Source: Coptis chinensis
Lineage: Eukaryota > Streptophyta > Magnoliopsida > Ranunculales > Ranunculaceae
DNA length: 64,000 nucleotides
NCBI GenBank assembly: GCA_015680905.1
Contig: CM027381.1
Location: 87,755,501 to 87,819,500, forward strand
Direction of reading: 5' to 3'
Both the position numbers and the translations under genes were made by a program. Numbering within the stretch: position 1 is the stretch's first letter; the number at the start of each line of letters is the position of its first letter. The notes beneath the pieces are model-generated. The model did not search any database. It saw nothing but the letters and a program-made list of their open reading frames with translations, and was not told where the DNA came from. This document shows, piece after piece, positions 15,640 through 50,747 of this stretch.

Positions 15640-15917
15640 TAGGTAGGATTGATGTAAAACAAGTGGGTTAGTGTTTGCAAGTTAGTAGTCCAAGTCTATG
15701 TAATTGGTCGTAGCTAGTGTTTGAGTGGTTTAGGAGTCTGTTAGCTACTTAGCTATTCTTCAGGAGTTGTGATAGTCTTATGGAGTCTTAGATTGTTGCA
15801 CAAGTATAGCCCACGTAGGCTATGATTCTGTTATAAATAAGTCAAAGATAGTACAATGTATTATCGAGTCTTTTAGTTCTCAGAAAACAAGTAACACTTC
15901 CATTCATTATTCCAATA
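15640..15917 (+). repeat. 5' LTR of Copia A
   Basis: It shares GATTCTGTTATAAATAAGTC (TATA-like) and GTACAATGTATTATCGAGT with the 3' LTR. It ends ATTCCAATA just before the PBS. The first bases (TAGGTAGGATTGATG) differ from the 3' LTR start (TGATAAGAATTAATG), so the exact left edge is uncertain. Confidence 0.85.
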
Positions 15918-21067: not shown

Positions 21068-21348
21068 TGATAAGAATTAATGTAAAACAAGTGGGTTAGT
21101 GTTTGCAAGTTAGTAGTCCAAGTGGTCTATATAATTGGATGTATTGTTTGAGTGGTTTAGGAGTCTGTTAGCTACTTAGCTATACTTCAGGAGTTGAGCT
21201 AGTCTTATGGAGTCTTATATTGTTGCACAAGTATAGCCCACGTAGGCTATGATTCTGTTATAAATAAGTCAGAGATAGTACAATGTATTATCGAGTATTT
21301 TAGTTCTCAGAAAACAAGTAACACGTACTTCCAGTCATTATTCCAACA
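21068..21348 (+). repeat. 3' LTR of Copia A
   Basis: It begins TGATAAGAATTAATG right after the purine tract AAGAGGGAG and ends TTATTCCAACA, giving TG...CA ends. It is collinear with the 5' LTR over its whole length. Confidence 0.9.
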
Positions 21349-40030: not shown

Positions 40031-41340
40031 TATCAATGATCTTGAATTCTCTGCTCATGACTAGTAACAAAGCTGAAAATTTCCAGGGATATTTAGGCTT
40101 TGGTCCTACTATTAATAGCGATATTAGGCTTTGGTCACACTTTTCAAATTAATTAGGCTTTAGTCTTTTTTTTTTCTTGACCGTGAGTCAACATAGCTTG
40201 ACCTTGGTCATTCTACTTACTTTTTCAATATGACCAAAATACCCCTAAGCATGCCTCACGTGTTTTGAAGTTGAAGTGATTAGTTCACCACATGTCAATT
40301 AGTGAATGGATTATGTAGATCTAACAACATCTAGTACGTCGTTGATCTATCTTTAATCTCGTGTATCTCATTATTGAATGCTGATGTATTGAAACAAACC
40401 CATTTAATGCTTCCCTTCCACCTGTTAGTTTCTACAAATGAGAACAAACCCAATCTCCCTCCCAAAAAATTTCATTTCACTAGACATTGACGACAACCCT
40501 ACCTATGTGAATGGAAATTTTATGAAGTAGGTTCAAAAGGAAAAACAAATCACTTTGTCGTCATGTAATACTATCTATCGACTTAATTATTTATAAAACG
40601 TCCCACCCTATGGCGAGATGCATGGTACTATAGTATACATTGTACGTATAACGAGAATTGCAGTGAGTAAGGATGAGTTCTTTAACTCTTAATGAATTTC
40701 ATAGCCCATATTTTAATGAGGTGGTGTATTTAAACTATAACGTACACCTGATGGAAATCCACCCATGTGAATGTAGGATTGGATTAGTTCTTATAGATAT
40801 TTGGGCAAGTATTCTAGCATTCATGTAGCACAGGTAGTGCAGGGCCAAAAAGTGCAACACCGCAGAACAAACAATACAATGAAGGAGCAATGTGGGTGCA
40901 TGTCCTCTATCTCACTAAAAAGAATATTGGTTCAAAGATTTTATTCTTCCACTTTCACGTGATATATGATTTGTTGCCCTATGACTGGTTTAAGCTCGTA
41001 AGACACCAATATTTCATGCACTGTAATTTTGATTCTCTCTGGTACTTGGTTAACCCTTTTGTCATATTCTATTCCAAAATAATGGGGGACTATAAATATT
41101 TTGAAATAGTAGGAGATTGTTGGAATTCACCTTTTGATATTTCAAATTACTTATGTGAGCTTAGTTGAGAAGATAAACAAGTATGTTCTTTCTCTCATTG
41201 TATTTTGTGTAATAGTCCCACATTGGTTGGTAAATTCTTATAAACCAATTTTGCAGTCTATATTATTGTTTTATACCCACATTGGTTAGTTAACTCTTTG
41301 TGAGTGACTTTAACCTCTATATAAAAACTTGTAGTCATCA
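40031..41340. other. Intergenic, nothing supported
   Basis: Near 40085-40170, TTAGGCTTTGGTC-like phrases repeat three times. The plus frame 40890-41168 has no domain. No gene. Confidence 0.45.
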
Positions 41341-41341
41341 A

Positions 41342-41490
41342 CCAAAGATATTTAATAATTAAGACCTAAACCAATCTCTTTCATTCGAGCCAAAGATATT
41401 TAATAATTAAGACTCCTAAACTCATCGACCTAAACTCATCTCTTTCATTTGAGCCAAAGATATTTAATAATTAAGACCTAAACTCATATC
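41342..41490. repeat. Short tandem array at the Copia B insertion site
   Basis: CCAAAGATATTTAATAATTA followed by AGAC occurs at 41342, 41390 and 41454. The units are joined by CTAAACTCATCTCTTTCATT-like spacers. The sequence just right of the Copia (TCTCTTTCATTCGAGCC, from 46943) continues the same spacer, showing the element landed inside the array. Confidence 0.75.
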
Positions 41491-41491
41491 T

Positions 41492-42160
41492 TGTTGGGAG
41501 ATTTCACTAGAAAGTCACACCTCAATCTAGTTACTTTCTATCCCAAATGATTTCAACTTGGAGCTCACAATCTGAGGAAATTAAAGACTTTGTTTATCAC
41601 AACAACCTTGTCAAAGCAAAACCACTACAATATCATCACAATTTGATAGCAACAATAATAATGGAAGTAACAATGCAAAGAGACATTCAAGATTTAGGTG
41701 GTTCGGTAAATGTTACCTACATCCACACACAAGAGCCGAGTTCCTTTATAACAAAGATTGGAGAGTTTACAAGAGATCAAGAATCAATAAGAAGAGGCCT
41801 CCACTCAAACCCTAGCTCAACAGAGCTCCCATGATACCCTAGAAATGAATCTCTCAAAGTTCTACATCAAAACCCTAATCTATTTCCTTTATATAAAGTG
41901 TACATAGACAAAGGGGAAGTAAAAATGGGCTTGGGCGCAATGTGGAGCTTGATCGGCTACATAGGTGACCAAAAAATTATCTCTTCATCGAGCATGAGCA
42001 GTCCGCCTTATATATAGGTTCGATGATAGTCTTTTTCTTAGACATCATAGCTTGAGTTTATATCCAATTTTTCGTCATCAGAATAATGATTCATCGAGAT
42101 TGAAGCGATAGACTGGTGAGCGGACACCGAAAATTCGGCTGCAATCCAACAACCCAACAA
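41492..42160 (-). repeat. 3' LTR of Copia B (left), mosaic
   Basis: It begins on the plus strand TGTTGGGAGATTTCACTAG and ends CAACAACCCAACA. The first 400 bp match the right LTR closely. At 41569-41592, 41951-41983, 42019-42043 and 42063-42090 it instead matches DNA at 47.0-47.5 kb. Confidence 0.85.
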
Positions 42161-45100
42161 TCTCCCCACTTGGAACCTTCGAGATTCTTCATGCACATCA
42201 CATCTCAATTGTAACCACTCAATCCAAATCCAATATACTAAAAACAACACTTTCGGCTCATCCATCATGGTCTTCAAGCAAGAAGACCCACTGAATTGAA
42301 CAAACTTCAACTTCTCGATGAACTAACAGGCTTGTTAACATATCCGCCGGATTCTCAACTCCCTTGGATCTTCTCAAGTGCCAAAACCTCATCCTCCAAC
42401 GGATCGGATAAAATGATACGAGACCAATGTTTGGTCCTAGAATGAAAGGAATTCTTGGCAAGATGTATAGCACTCGACTATCAACGTGTAACACATTGCT
42501 TCTTCTTGCTTCATCCCAAACTCTTCCATCAATCCACGTAACGGATCATCTCTTTGCTTGCCTGCATTGGGAGAATACAGTTATATATTTGTTCAAAGCA
42601 ACAATCTTACAGAATCGAAAATCCAACTTTTTTTTTCGCTGTGCATAACCAAGTAGTGCTTCTTCATTTTCTACTTCTCTGCAAAATCGGCATCCACATA
42701 CCCTTGCGGGTTCACAACACCCTTCCCATAACATAGGCATTTCTCTGTAGTACCTCCTCGATATCTCAATATCCACTTCACGGCTTCCCAATGTTGCTTG
42801 CGACATTTAGACATAAATCCAGTGACAAAGACCTTTCTTGGGCTATATCCGGACGTGTTGACAAACCATGGCATACATAAGACTTCCAATGGCGGTTGAT
42901 TGGTACCTTAGCCATGAAGTTTCTTTCCTCAAAGGTCTTGGGAGAGTGTTCCTTGGACAACACAAGTGAACTGTATCAACCGGTTTCAACCCATAATGAA
43001 CCTCTTGAATACCTTCTCATATATACTCAACTCTGATGGAATACAACTCCGAATACCTTTACGCCTATCTCTTTTCATCCCTAGAATTGCATTTTTGCAC
43101 CCAAAGTCCTTCATAGAGAACTCACTTGCTAACTTCTCTTTCAATCTCCCAATTTCGACATATCGAACTTCGCTACTAACATATCATCAACATATAGCAA
43201 CGGGATGATGTAGCCGGAGTCGAACCTCTTGAAGTAGCAACAATGGTCGGTCCGTTGCACTTATAGTAGCCATTTCCTTGCATGAAGTTATCAAACTTCA
43301 AATTGCACCCTGCCCTATGGGCTTGTTTCAAACCATACAAGCTCTTTTCGAGCACGCATACCATATTCTCTTTACCGCTTCTTGATGAAACCCTCCGGTT
43401 CATTTGCATATAAATTTCCTCAACTAGGTCACCATGGAGGAAGGCGGTTTAACATCCAACTGCTCAAGATATAAATCTTCCACCTGCAACAATACTTACA
43501 ACACTACTATCGAATAGTATTCGGTTTCCCACTATCGAATATCTCATTTCAATGCCCGCTTTTCTGAAAACCCATGACTACTAGCCTTGCCTTGTATCTC
43601 TTGGAACCATCATGTTCCTCTTTGACTCTAAACACCCATTTGTTCGTAGAGCCTTCTTGCCCATGGGTAGTTTGGCTAACTCCCACGTGCCACAAGAGAT
43701 GAGGGACTTCATCTCATCTTGCATAGCAAGCTCCCACTTGTTTTGCATCACTCACCTCCAATGCTTCATCATAGCATTGGGGCTCGCCACCATCGATGAA
43801 GTAGCAAGTAATTCACATAGGTGGAGGGCGGATATCTCGAACTTCGGTACATGTGGCTGGATGTCTTCAAAGCAGAGGTGGAGATGGACTTCAATGGTGT
43901 AGTATCCTCATTATTCTCGAGTCACTTACTGAACATCCTCGTTAAGTCTCCCACTATACCACGACTTACATCGGATCTTCCAACTCAACATACTCATCTT
44001 GATTCGAACTCAATTCCTTGGTTTGAGCTTCATCTCGTCCTTGACATCACCTTTTCATTAAACACAACATCTCTACTATAATGATTTTCCATTTTGATCA
44101 TCCCAAAAGCGATACCCAAAATCATCACCGCCATAGCCAATGAAGGTGCACTTTAGTGACTTAGCATCAAGCTTGCTTCTAGCTTGGTCACTAATGTGGA
44201 CATAGGACACACAACCAAACACCTTCAAATGGGAAAGGTTCACATCCTTCCCGCTCCACACTTCCTCTGGAATCTTAAAATCCAAAGGCACCGGGTCCTC
44301 TATTGATCGGGTAAGGCTGGCAAAACAACATTTGTGCCTTCACAGCTTCATCAAACACTTCTAGTTAGGCCTTTTCACCTATGCTCTCTCATCTCGATGT
44401 TCTATTCATCCGCTCTAACCCCATTCTGGCGAGGTGTCCCCGAAAAGTCTTTTCCATCTTGATGCCATTGTCGACAAGATTCTTAAAACAGTCCTCTTCA
44501 TACTCTCCACCGTTTGTCGGATCTCGACTTCTTTACTTTCAAGCTTGTCTCATTCTCAACCATGGCCTTCCAAATCTTGAACAATTCAAATTGTTTTCTA
44601 CTTGTGTCTCAAGAAATAGACCCACACCTTCCTAGTATGGTCATCAATGAAAGTCACAAAATATGACTTTCCGCCAAGTGAAGAGACATTAGGAAGCCCC
44701 CCGTTTATCTGTATGAATCAACTCAAGCCTTCTTGCTTTGGGTCGACCCGTTCTCTGAAAACTCACCCGCCATAACGCTTTCCAAATACACGGTTCTCCG
44801 GTGTCAATTTCAATTTCGATCAGAACTTTGGGAGTTTACCGTAAGAGTGAAGGATTTTCATTCCTTTCTCACTCATGTGACCAAGTCTGCGGTGCCAAAC
44901 ATTCGATCCTTTTGCCATTGTCCGGCAATCGAACCCAACCATGTGCGGTCATGTAGAATTACCATCTTTCTTACCATTTGCAACAATCAATGAACCCTTC
45001 GGTCCTTCCAAGTATCACCAAGTAAAGACAGAACAAATCCTTCACTTGCCAATTGCCCCACAGTTCAAATTCTTCCTCAAATCCGGAACATGTCCATTTC

Positions 45101-46282
45101 CCTCAATAACCATGATTAGCCATTCATCTTGATATGCAGTTCACCCTTCCGACAATGTCACAAGGTTGGTCATCACCGAAAAGACCGTTCCAAGGTCACC
45201 TTCGGTGTAGTTCTCAAGGAACTCGATGTGAGGTAGCATGGAAAGATGGATAATCAAGTACCCAAGACTCCTTCTTGTGCTCCATGAACATATTAAAACT
45301 CTCGTCATCTACCATCTCAACAACATTAGCTTCTTGATTCTTTTTCTTGTTCTTATTAATGTTGTTGTTGTTTCTTGGTGCTTGGGCAATTGGGGCTATA
45401 ATGGCCGGCCTACCACAATTATAGCACACCACTTCACTTATGTCTCGAGGTTTGTGTTCAACACTTTACAATTGGGAGGCTTGAGATTTGATCTCCCCAA
45501 ACTTCTTCTTACTACGACTCTGTTTGACTTTCTTCCCTTTTTCGATTAACTTTCAATTTGGACCACGAAGTTGATCCCGACGATGAAAACAATCCCATCT
45601 CCGGTTTCCTCGATTAGTACCATACTAACAACGTGCTCAAACTTCAACTTGGTCATTCGATGAGCCACTAATAGCGCCATAATCCTTCCAACTTGGAGGC
45701 AATTGTCCAAGTATCGCCAAAGCTAGCACCTCATCACTAAATGTAATCTCAACCGACTCAATTGGTCCTTAGTTTGGTTGAATTCATTTAGGTGATCCTG
45801 AAGGAGGTCCCTCCAACATTTTCATACTAAATAGCTTGGTGATCAAATAGACTTTGTTCAGGATTTTAGGTTGTTCATACATGGTAGTAAATGCCTCCAT
45901 GAGAACTCAAATGTCTTCTCGGTCTTAATATTGAAGGCTACCGACTTGAAAAGACTCAATCGGATTGTAACCAAAGCCTTTCTATCTTGCAAATCCCATT
46001 TATCTTGCGGAATCTCCTCCTCAAAAAAATTTATCAATGTTTCCATCAAATCCTTTTGATAGAGAACATCCTCGATTTGCATCTTCCAATCGAAGTTTGT
46101 TCACAAACTTCTATCTTCAATAGTTTCCTTTTTGATTAAATCATGACTCCCACTGAACCAAAACAACGGTGGAGAACTTCTCAGAGGAATTTCTTCAAAC
46201 ACCTAGCTCTCTCTGTGCTAAAGGTGGAGTCTTTCCTCACACACCTTGTTCCAATGATTCAAAACCGTGCTCTGATACCACT
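42161..46282 (-). pseudogene. Copia B gag-pol, fragmented
   Basis: Right to left: gag (46082-45858, MQIEDVLYQKDLMETLINFF, VTIRLSLFKSVAFNI). Zinc knuckle and protease (45432-45214, VCYNCGR then WVLD...FHATSH, the usual DSGAS replaced by a garbled DYPS). Integrase end (44291-44076, VNLSHLKVFGCVSYVHISDQ). RT (43409-43176, EKSLYGLKQA). RNase H side (42963-42671, ILRYRGGTTEKCLCYGKG, YVDADFA). Between them the frame changes every 50-200 bp, denser than ordinary decay. The pol order is normal Copia. Confidence 0.85.
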
Positions 46283-46942
46283 TGTTGGGAGATTTCACTA
46301 GAAAGTCACACCTCAATCTAGTTACTTTCTATCCCAAATGATTTCAACTTGGAGCTCACACCAAGGAAATCACCCACCCAAGACTTTGGTAGTTATCACA
46401 ACAACCTCAACAAAGCAAAACCACTACAATATCATCACAATTCATAGCAACAATAATAATGGAAGTAACAATGCAAAGAGACACAAAGATTTAGGTGGTT
46501 CGGTAAATGTTACCTACATCCACACACAAGAGCCGAGTTTCCTTTATAACAAAGATTGGAGAGTTTACAAGAGATCAAGAATCAATAAGAAGAGGCCTCA
46601 CTCAAACCCTAGCTCAATTATGAGCCCCACAATACCCTAGAAATGAATCTCTCAAAGTTCTACATCAAAACCCTAATCTATTTCCTTTATATAGGTGTAC
46701 ATAGACAAAGGGGAAGTAAAATGGGCTTGGGCCGCAATTCTTTACTTGGTAGGTGAGTGGCCTTTCATCGAGCATGGCCTTGAGTCCGCCTTAGGTGGTG
46801 GCAGCTGCTTTCTTCGATTACATCGGCCTTATATTACACGATCGCCCTGGCGCCATGGACGAAAAATCGCCCTCTTCATCGATTGAGCAGAGAGTGGTGA
46901 ACGGACACCGGAGCAAAGCTCGACGGTTCCAACAACCCAACA
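46283..46942 (-). repeat. 5' LTR of Copia B (right)
   Basis: It begins TGTTGGGAGATTTCACTAG beside the PBS and ends CCAACAACCCAACA. It appears uninterrupted and is the better reference for this LTR family. Confidence 0.88.
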
Positions 46943-49150
46943 TCTCTTTCATTCGAGCCTTAACTACCAGAGTTCATTGAGTAGAAGTCTTTTACATTGA
47001 ATCCTATGAGTAGAATCTGAGGGATTTAAAGACTGTTTTCACACGCCTTGTCTATTCTTCTTCTGTCCTTTCATTCTATTTGATTATCTAACTCCTTTTA
47101 TAATAGTGCATGCTCATTCATGTTGATTGGCTAAGTTAACGTAGGAAGACAAACTAATTCACGAGTTGAGCTGAGGTTTTATGCCAGGGAGACTGCCATT
47201 ATGAAAATTAAGATTCATGATTGCGTGTGGTTACGAATTACAATCACCAGGGTGGAATAGTTTATGCAAAAGTGCCCTCATGATTAGGTCCAAAAGAATG
47301 TGTAATTGTGTATATTGTGAGTAGATCGCTACAGACTACCAAAAAATTATCTTTTCAGCCTAATAATTCTTAGACTAATATATATATATTCGATGATAGT
47401 CTTTCTTAGACTAATAATGAGTAGGAAGTTGGGGTCCAATTTTTCGTCATCAGAATAATGATAAGGAGATGAAGCTGATAGACTGATGGTATGCATATAT
47501 AGAATATTGAACTGCAATCGCTAAAGTATTCCAGGTTCCTCAATAGAGAGGCTCACAGGCATCAGAATGTTTTAAATGCTCTGATGAACTCTCAGATTAA
47601 TTGTCAAACAGCACTTTGGTATCCTATTCCAAATGTGAAAGACAGTGTTGGATGCGACGCTTCGACACCATATGTTATCCTGAATTAGAGAAAATGTGTG
47701 ACATATGGGTGATGTAACACTTGTTACATACTTCCTTCCGAGTTTCAACCCAAAGTAACCCTATCCCAGGATGCATTGCACTGAATTGGGAGAATGGATT
47801 AATGGAACTCATTTGCACTCTTAAGACTCTCAACTCAACAAATTGCTTTTTTTTTTTTTCGCTAAAAACAACTCAACAAATTGTTGTTTGGTAAAACTTT
47901 TTTTTTACACGACAGATTTACAGTTTATATATTTGTTCAAATTAATAACTTACAAAATAGTTTTCACTCAATGTGCCCGTTTATGGTTTTTGGCGTGTCT
48001 ACTGAGTGCTGGAAATTTACATCTTCAAATTAACGTTCTCAGATTCAAAATTGTTTTGTTATGGATAGTTGGATACTTCAGGATTGGAATAGATTTACTT
48101 AATTTTCAGTACACAACCAGTCAAGCAAAGACCTCTTGAGTTAATCAATAAAGTTGACTACTCGATGGGATCGCGAAGGATAATTATTGGCTTGATTGCA
48201 AACAACCATGATTTCGATCAAAGGTACAGTTCCTGTACCCAAAAATCACACTTCATCATTACTCAACATTAATGTACAAAGCTTATGATATAGGTAGCTC
48301 AATCAAGTTATGAAGTAGAAGCGTTTTTAAAGCTTATAATTGCATAATTGAAACATAAGCCATCTATAATGATTGCTGATTTCTCCACATTAAGTTACCA
48401 AAAAAAAAGATTTCTCCCCTAGCTAAGCTAGTGGAGGTGGGCTGCTCTGACTTGTCCGTCGCAAATTGCAATAATATGCATTCCATGATTTTTGTTTTTT
48501 GAGATCTAAGGCTTGGAAATCAAGTGAGTCAAAATGAGATCATTTGGGAGAAAACAACTCAACTTTTTAAGTTTTAAGTAATAAGCTGTAAGTCTATAAC
48601 ACTCTCAACTCTTTACTTCACTACTATGCACAATCTAGAAATCCAAAGACTATCGATAACTCATTTCTGAATTACATTCCATGAACAATCTGAACTTTCT
48701 TTGAAAGTGCATAACTCACTTAACTCTATATTGTGTGGTGAAGAGATAATTAGGCATTGAAATTATAGCTAACGAATCCGAAAACGGAAACAATATAAGC
48801 TAGGTTCTGTTTAAATATTAGCAAAAAAAAAATTTCTTGATAATCCCACTAAAGCAACATTAAGTATAAGATATTGCGACATTTTACTGGACTGACATTT
48901 ATAGCAACAAAGAAGTTGTTAATTGTTTCAATGAAGTGAGATTCAATTCTCATTTTATGAACTTCTCTGTTAAGTCTGTTTACTCCTTGTTGTGGATTTA
49001 AGAACATGCACATCTTGATTCGAACTCAAACTTGGCTGAGTTTTCAGTGAAATGACATCATTTTTGTAGAAAACAGGAGAAGACTACATAATTTTTCCAT
49101 GGTAGGCATTCTAGGAAAGAAGAACAATCCTAGAGTGATAAAGACGACTT
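46943..49150. other. Intergenic DNA right of Copia B
   Basis: Single-copy-looking AT-rich DNA with no supported gene. Several short blocks here reappear in order inside Copia B (41.57-44.4 kb). The plus frame 47843-48139 has no domain. Confidence 0.5.
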
Positions 49151-49501
49151 CTAGAGTGAGAACGACGACTCGTCCCCTACTTGCGAAGAATTTGCTGATC
49201 TCATGTACTTCTTTGAAGATGATGACAAGTCCCCTGACCTCCTCCTTAGCATCTGCCTCATTCCATCAGAAACTCTAACCGCTGGGTTCAACTTGAATTT
49301 TCGACAAAACAACATGTGTGCCTTCACAGCTTCATCCACTTCATTAGGCCTTTTCCCTCTATGCACCTCATCTCTGACTGCTTCTGCGCATAATCCACAT
49401 AGCCATTTCTCGTCGAACTTCGCCTTCACTTCACTTATGTAGTCTTGTGTACAGTCCTCCTTCAATCCGCAACACTCACACCTGACTGACTCGATTTCCA
49501 T
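49151..49501 (-). CDS. DUF1677 family protein
   Basis: A single-exon frame of 116 residues. The N-terminal 60 residues carry the DUF1677 signature: CECCGLKEDCTQDYI, FDEKWLCGLCAEAVRDEV, with paired CxxC cysteines (CECC, CGLC) that may bind a metal. A DEAVKAHMLFCRKF segment follows, then a Ser/Arg-rich variable tail (MLRRRSGDLSSSSKKYMRSA). This plant-specific family is short and has no established function. The start MEIESVRCE places the Cys motif near the N-terminus; no better upstream start is evident. Part of this gene (about 49304-49375) is echoed inside Copia B, which I read as a consensus artefact rather than gene capture. Confidence 0.88.
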   Translation of the reverse strand: MEIESVRCECCGLKEDCTQDYISEVKAKFDEKWLCGLCAEAVRDEVHRGKRPNEVDEAVKAHMLFCRKFKLNPAVRVSDGMRQMLRRRSGDLSSSSKKYMRSANSSQVGDESSFSL

Positions 49502-50747
49502 CTCTAGCTCCTTGTGGACAAAGTAAAATGCAAATTGTTTTCTAGTTACAGTTTATACACTCTGGTGCTCTTTTTTTGTGACTTCGGACTTGTGAGTGAA
49601 GTTGTGGCTATAAGAAGTGTGTTTGGAAGTTGTGTGTGACCTTTTTATGGTGTGGTTTGGGGTGTGACTTGTGAGGGAGGAGATAGTACCCCCATGTTCT
49701 AAAGGGACATGAGACAATGGGGTAGGGGAGGGGGTCTGTAGGTTGGCTTTGTCCTGCATAAAAAACCCAAATGAGAGGTTTTGGAATTAGATTCTCTAGT
49801 CACCACTCACCAGGTTCTTGTCTACTGGTCTGCTACTCTCTTTGTGGGGGTAGTTTTTGTTACTTGTGACAGTTACTTTCAGTTAAATTGGTTGAATACT
49901 TGAATCTGCCATTTCTTGGCTTGGCTTCATTAGTTTTAGCCTTTAGGTAGGAGTCTAGGACTTCGCCCATGTGCAGAGTAGTTGACTCATGGACTATTAT
50001 CAAGTATGGAGTATGGACAAGGAAATCAGTCTAACGTTTTTTAGTAAGAAATGGATAATAATTCTAAAATTCTTTAAAGACTGAAATTGAATTTTCAATA
50101 AAACTCTCAGCCTACACAATATACGCTGTACCGAACACAAAATTAATAAAGGTTACAAGATAATGAGAGCATAGATGTGTAAATGTGTTATAGATACCTT
50201 CAGAAAGGTTGATAAGAAAATAAGAAACTAATGCAATTTGATATATTTCTTAGAAACCGGTGGCCATTAGGTGACTAAACGGACTATGCTTTTGACCTGG
50301 ACATAAATTTTCAGCGGCAACAGAAAAAGAAAAGAACAACAACAACAATTTGAAGTACTTCATGCAGTAAAAACGATGAATCAATATGCTCGATCTGCAC
50401 CCTCAGAACATACCATAACTCGACGATATACACGATGAATCATATGCTTTATACGGTTATACCCAGCCAAGCCATGGTACGTTCCTTTTCTTTTTCCCTT
50501 CATAGTTTCAAATGATTGCCAAAATCTTCAGTATCGTGGCTAGGCTCGGTATAAAGCAAAAGCCTGCCAAAGTAAATTTCCCCAAGGATGCTAGAAAATA
50601 GGCCTGTTTCAGGGGATTTAGGGTGTTGCCAAATCATGGTACAAATCTAATGTAACTCAAATGCCCTGATAATTTTTTTTAAGTTTGGGCAATGGGCAGT
50701 AACAACAATGATTTGCTCACTTACGGCCTTTCAAAAAAAAATTTTTT
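49502..50747. other. Upstream region of the DUF1677 gene
   Basis: Probably promoter and 5' UTR near 49502-49800, then AT-rich spacer. No other gene is supported; the minus frame 49553-49759 is a low-complexity His/Ser/Thr-rich shadow. Confidence 0.45.

Follow-up and report, generated by a model that had tools for sequence, protein, structure and literature searches.

The closest described systems are Ty1/copia LTR retrotransposons, mosaic consensus sequences from collapsed haplotypes, and nanopore errors mediated by base modification. The element described here (Copia B) resembles the first in its LTR pair with TG...CA ends, in the order of its pre-integrase and SH3 domains ahead of the reverse transcriptase and in its length of about 5.4 kb, and is odd only in the damage that it bears in the assembly. 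For the second, the passages of PMC8445201 drawn on here describe how nearby allelic variants in a collapsed assembly led to wrong read alignments and indel errors, the causes given there being neighbouring differences between alleles and internal repeats whose length varies. The present locus is like that system in that collapsed alleles and misaligned reads would give false indels and frameshifts, and unlike it in that a whole 5.4-kb insertion would separate the alleles, with unrelated DNA interspersed through about 3 kb. For the third, the passages used describe base-calling errors linked to modification in nanopore sequencing (PMC10687267), and in a plant review a basecaller of its time without training on native plant DNA (PMC7501810); the likeness lies in base-calling errors on modified native DNA (PMC10687267, PMC7501810). 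The system of PMC10687267, in the part used, is bacterial isolates, and the link to the present locus is drawn from CG/CHG density and error type alone. A literature search found no paper on exactly the artefact proposed below, which is not proof of absence.

The DNA analysed was a stretch of 64,000 nucleotides from Coptis chinensis (GCA_015680905.1, contig CM027381.1), here called the window. The Ty1/copia element (minus strand, 41492-46942, 5451 bp) was recognized by its LTR pair, by pieces of Pfam domains and by its matches across the genome. Both LTRs (41492-42159 and 46283-46942, minus strand) have TG...CA ends and were delimited by these ends and by LTR alignments. On the coding strand, gag and integrase-side domains precede the reverse transcriptase: gag_pre-integrs (44820-44948), SH3_retrovirus (44076-44339) and RVT_2 (43176-43448) were matched in minus-strand frames above the Pfam cut-off, and Retrotran_gag_2 (45858-46100) was matched weakly, below the cut-off (E 0.032). 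The Pfam search covered nine chosen frames of the element, and in these, which leave out 44550-44819, rve (integrase core) had no match. A word at 46269-46280 (minus strand), which we take to be like a primer-binding site, adjoins the right LTR at a distance of two bases; because the domains lie in minus-strand frames and this word stands at the right LTR, the right LTR is the 5′ LTR and the left one the 3′ LTR. The putative target-site duplication is imperfect, TATCT (41487-41491) agreeing with TCTCT (46943-46947) at four of five bases; in five of nine other copies, with ends as cut, all five bases agree. Left of the element, a direct repeat of about 51 bp occurs three times in 41315-41477, at spacings of 48 and 64 bp. 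An 18-bp word from it reappears at 46942; one such repeat unit therefore seems to have been cut in two by the insertion. Another element in the window carries an LTR-like pair of its own (15652-15900 and 21080-21328, separated by 5.4 kb), whose members differ little and are poor in CG/CHG sites.

An earlier note on this DNA had listed seven pairs of short blocks shared, in the same order, by the left part of the element and the DNA to its right. All seven were recovered where it had placed them, the offset between partners declining steadily, as it had said, from 5445 to 4944 by our computation, and the first offset being only six less than the element length of 5451. The series opens with an inexact pair at offset 5445 (41569-41592 with 47014-47036; 18 of 20 aligned bases) and continues with blocks at 41951-41986 (partner 47323-47356; exact core 15 bp, 41968/47338), 42009-42043 (47379-47411; 16 bp, 42019/47389), 42055-42090 (47427-47462; 28 bp, 42063/47435), 42579-42604 (47922-47948; 17 bp, 42581/47925), 43986-44013 (49002-49029; 19 bp, 43995/49011) and 44321-44395 (49304-49375; 20 bp, 44333/49317). 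The end that the note had given to the mosaic did not hold, since a last clear block absent from it (44579-44603 with 49523-49547; 14 bp, 44587/49531, offset 4944) makes the mosaic about 200 bp longer; the best flank alignment extends to 44985, the last clear block stopping at 44603. The left 3.1 kb of the element thus holds seven collinear exact blocks of 14-28 bp, and smaller ones, from the right flank. Comparison of the element with 3 kb of right flank gave eight exact matches that were 14 bp or longer (low-complexity words excluded); seven of them lie on the falling diagonal (offset about 5372 to 4944), the exception being 45430/49427. Local alignment of the left 3.3 kb with the element's own right flank scored 433 as against 182 ± 11 (maximum 202) for 33 decoys from elsewhere in the window and, with stringent gaps, 75 as against 18 ± 4.5 (maximum 40). 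The mosaic was thereby confirmed. The foreign letters are those of the element's own flank, ordered and beginning near the junction, and the contaminated part is the left LTR together with the reverse-transcriptase half.

The right flank that supplies the blocks (46943-49547) occurs at full length at one place in the 935-Mb assembly among the best matches listed, and no second copy of it, such as an empty-site contig, was found among them. The best candidates included 39 further matches, of which two lie within the element (flank positions 396-546 at 75% identity and 2363-2432 at 86%) and the remainder cover only part of the flank (about 60-365 bases at 71-83% identity), one of them elsewhere, at 76% over flank positions 2210-2559 (350 bases), in the DUF1677 part. 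An intact DUF1677-type reading frame stands in the flank (49151-49552, minus strand; 133 aa stop to stop; PF07911, E 3.3e-36, profile positions 1-92 of 94), and the block at 44321-44395, identical to the flank at 31 of 32 bases in its best stretch, is a fragment of it. LTR-to-LTR alignment agreed with the earlier note that the right LTR lacks the blocks of the left one. The flank is the clean partner and the element the recipient, because the flank is found at full length once, its DUF1677 frame is intact, the right LTR is free of blocks and most of the block letters occur in the window copy alone.

At least 32 other matches in the genome span most of the internal region of the element. The comparison with other genome copies for which the earlier note had called bore it out: words of 14 bp or longer that matched the own flank exactly numbered eight in the window copy (seven collinear) and zero in each of eight other informative copies. 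Nine copies were tested with both flanks, L048, which has another family LTR in its right flank, being left out; five had 3 kb per side and three had 2.0-2.4 kb, and L014, L015, L022 and L023 entered the copy alignment and stood outside this word test. Four of the five copies tested with 3 kb each have one 14-bp word in common with the right flank of the window element. Over about its first 460 bp the right LTR is mostly 96-98% identical to the LTRs of other copies, and the left LTR 90-92%. The longest frame of the window copy, 95 aa as against 164-491 aa in nine others, marks its frames as the most broken. Four shorter copies (L012, L013, L018 and L021) share only 76-77% identity with the window element in part of their middle, as against 97-98% between one LTR of each and the right LTR of that element; they may perhaps form a diverged internal subfamily with a common LTR.

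In the nine-copy alignment, 386 of 5451 letters (7.1%) are private to the window copy, as against 1.6-3.5% in the nine others, counted over whole copies. Where private letters could be aligned to the flank, 208 of 222 fitted the element's own right flank, the fit being 76-86% for 11 decoy flanks; six further decoys were also run. With the own left flank, one of the 11, the fit was 147 of 187 (Fisher p 7.6e-6 against the right flank), and letters common with other copies fitted the right flank at 78.2%, decoys giving 76.1-78.0%. When the words of seven letters that occur in the low-noise left LTR and are missing from the right LTR were taken, only eight of 90 stood at the expected place in the flank (74 decoys: average 0.4, maximum 4). 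The right half (44692-46942) has 6.1% private letters, explained by neither flank. No left-flank counterpart of the mosaic was found in the right half by alignment or by private letters: the left flank as a second donor scored 155 in alignment, within the 131-177 of the left flanks of five copies, and it fitted 93 of 114 right-half private letters (82%; decoys 74-81%, own right flank 83%).

In ten of ten other copies, the paired LTRs are near-identical for about 450 bp and then differ by 16-31 indels, with 14-23 gap openings within the 150 bp after position 450. Pooled over nine LTR pairs (without L021, whose LTR end was misplaced, and without the window copy), 28 differences were counted in 3970 columns before position 440 and 357 in 2741 columns after it, the latter made up of 212 indels and 145 substitutions (93 transversions, 52 transitions). 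The LTR pairs of three further copies behave alike, L047 standing outside this later count because the end of its left LTR was not located. LTR lengths in ten copies range from 657 to 791 bp, and the disagreeing part is the CG/CHG-dense U3 side (for example 46733-46942 in the window, and L009, L016 and L017). The right LTR of the window has two CG and one CHG sites in its first 450 bp and 15 and six, respectively, in its last 210 bp. Disagreement among nine other copies rose with CG plus CHG density (rho 0.73; 109 bins of 50 bp, neighbours being non-independent; columns used only where at least five other copies gave coverage), the value for G+C alone being 0.47. The differences are mostly indels and are concentrated at CG/CHG sites, and long-read base-calling error on methylated DNA would fit them best; methylation-driven mutation is not favoured as the source, because most differences past position 440 are indels and because transversions there outnumber transitions. 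Five other copies without the mosaic still show 76-133 gap openings per pair. The claim that the frameshifts of the element are partly false stood as regards the blend and gained a second, family-wide cause; the frameshifts have at least two causes, because the mosaic-free copies also show gap openings and disagreement at CG/CHG-dense spots.

The blocks and this noise tend to coincide. Six of the seven exact blocks lie at noisy CG/CHG spots, and the noise of the other copies around the seven (in order 0.70, 0.41, 0.38, 0.18, 0.23, 0.29 and 0.08) averages 0.32, as against 0.13 for the left zone, a mean reached by 37 of 3157 circular shifts and by none of 5000 random placements. Flank-fitting private letters correlated with noise at rho 0.57 (64 bins), a value that is confounded because noise by itself creates private letters, and private letters of the right half at rho 0.36. 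Flank letters are also found where noise is low (41542-41691, and at the block of 44587); noise therefore favours them and does not govern them.

Flank letters that had been aligned into the element should sit where an aligner places the flank on an uncontaminated copy. When the flank was globally aligned to five other copies at unit cost, the predicted place lay within 2 bp for 10 of 35 block registers, 65 decoys giving 1.5 on average and 6 at most; two linear-gap schemes gave 10 and 7 of 35, and three affine-gap schemes only 1-2 of 35, about the decoy level under unit cost. A straight-line path between the ends placed none of the 35 anchors so closely. The alignment was made to end at the last block, adjacent anchors are linked to one another and seven of the ten unit-cost matches came from two copies; for these reasons, and because one kind of aligner gave the register, the test is supportive and not decisive.

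We consider the mosaic to be a consensus blend of filled and empty insertion sites, with a probability of about 0.88. The copia element would be carried by only some of the molecules that were sequenced, a heterozygous insertion being the simplest case, although any mixture of filled and empty molecules would serve. The faulty step would be read correction or polishing, in which molecules with the empty site would match the left flank and then be forced, base by base and unclipped, onto the element, so that the letters of the right flank would be overlaid on about its first 3.1 kb. Where the element reads agreed, element letters would mostly win; where they were discordant, mainly at CG/CHG-dense spots, the concordant flank letters would often win, and the resulting consensus would be present in no molecule. 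The earlier note had proposed such a blend of two classes of reads, and the register starting near the insertion point, the private flank letters, the uniqueness among the tested copies, the intact flank and the unit-cost positions speak for it. A heterozygous insertion would also halve the coverage of the element, which could explain why the window copy has the most private letters and the shortest frames. Against the blend stand the raised private letters of the right half, the dependence of the register on the scoring scheme, the quiet-spot block at 44587 and quiet-spot flank letters at 41542-41691, the confounded correlation of flank-fitting private letters with noise, the failure to find a second flank copy among the matches listed and the imperfect putative target-site duplication; the pattern is moreover one-sided, the right half being without left-flank letters, which a blend alone does not predict.

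That the same blend arose without a heterozygous insertion, from pooled plants, from a somatic insertion or from a draft based on one faulty corrected read, is unlikely, although the present results would fit it equally well and no second flank copy appeared among the matches listed; a diploid heterozygote would be the simplest source of two classes of molecules. It is very improbable that the blocks are real, short pieces of flank having been copied into the element by repeated gene conversion or template switching: the letters are present in the assembly and the blocks reach 28 exact bases, but such events would have had to transfer many short collinear pieces (cores of 14-28 bp) without surrounding homology, for the most part to spots that are noisy in other copies, and in the register that a unit-cost forced alignment gives, and none of the eight other informative copies is alike. 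Still less credence is given to a real disagreement of the LTRs at CG/CHG sites across the family, in which methylated indel hot spots would have been renewed in each LTR after insertion, the remainder of the LTR staying almost the same, with the flank serving as the patch here; paired LTRs of an element arise from one template, and true divergence of such a shape is therefore not expected. Old common ancestry or chance likeness between element and flank has a negligible chance of explaining the mosaic, for although there is background similarity (decoys about 182) and most weak alignment segments may be chance, the right LTR is free of blocks, the block letters are largely private, one block lies inside the DUF1677 frame, the real score is more than 20 decoy standard deviations away, and for the long blocks the decoys and the other copies rule it out.

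With the blend of filled and empty sites as the preferred reading, the patchwork is most likely a computing artefact and not biology, and the assembled sequence most likely exists in no molecule. Words of an insertion's own flank, lying inside it in a falling register, offer a simple way, without recourse to reads, of testing an assembly for polymorphic insertions that were blended. For the window copy, and probably for the family genome-wide, frameshifts, dating by LTR divergence and claims of gene loss should be set aside until they have been checked with accurate reads.
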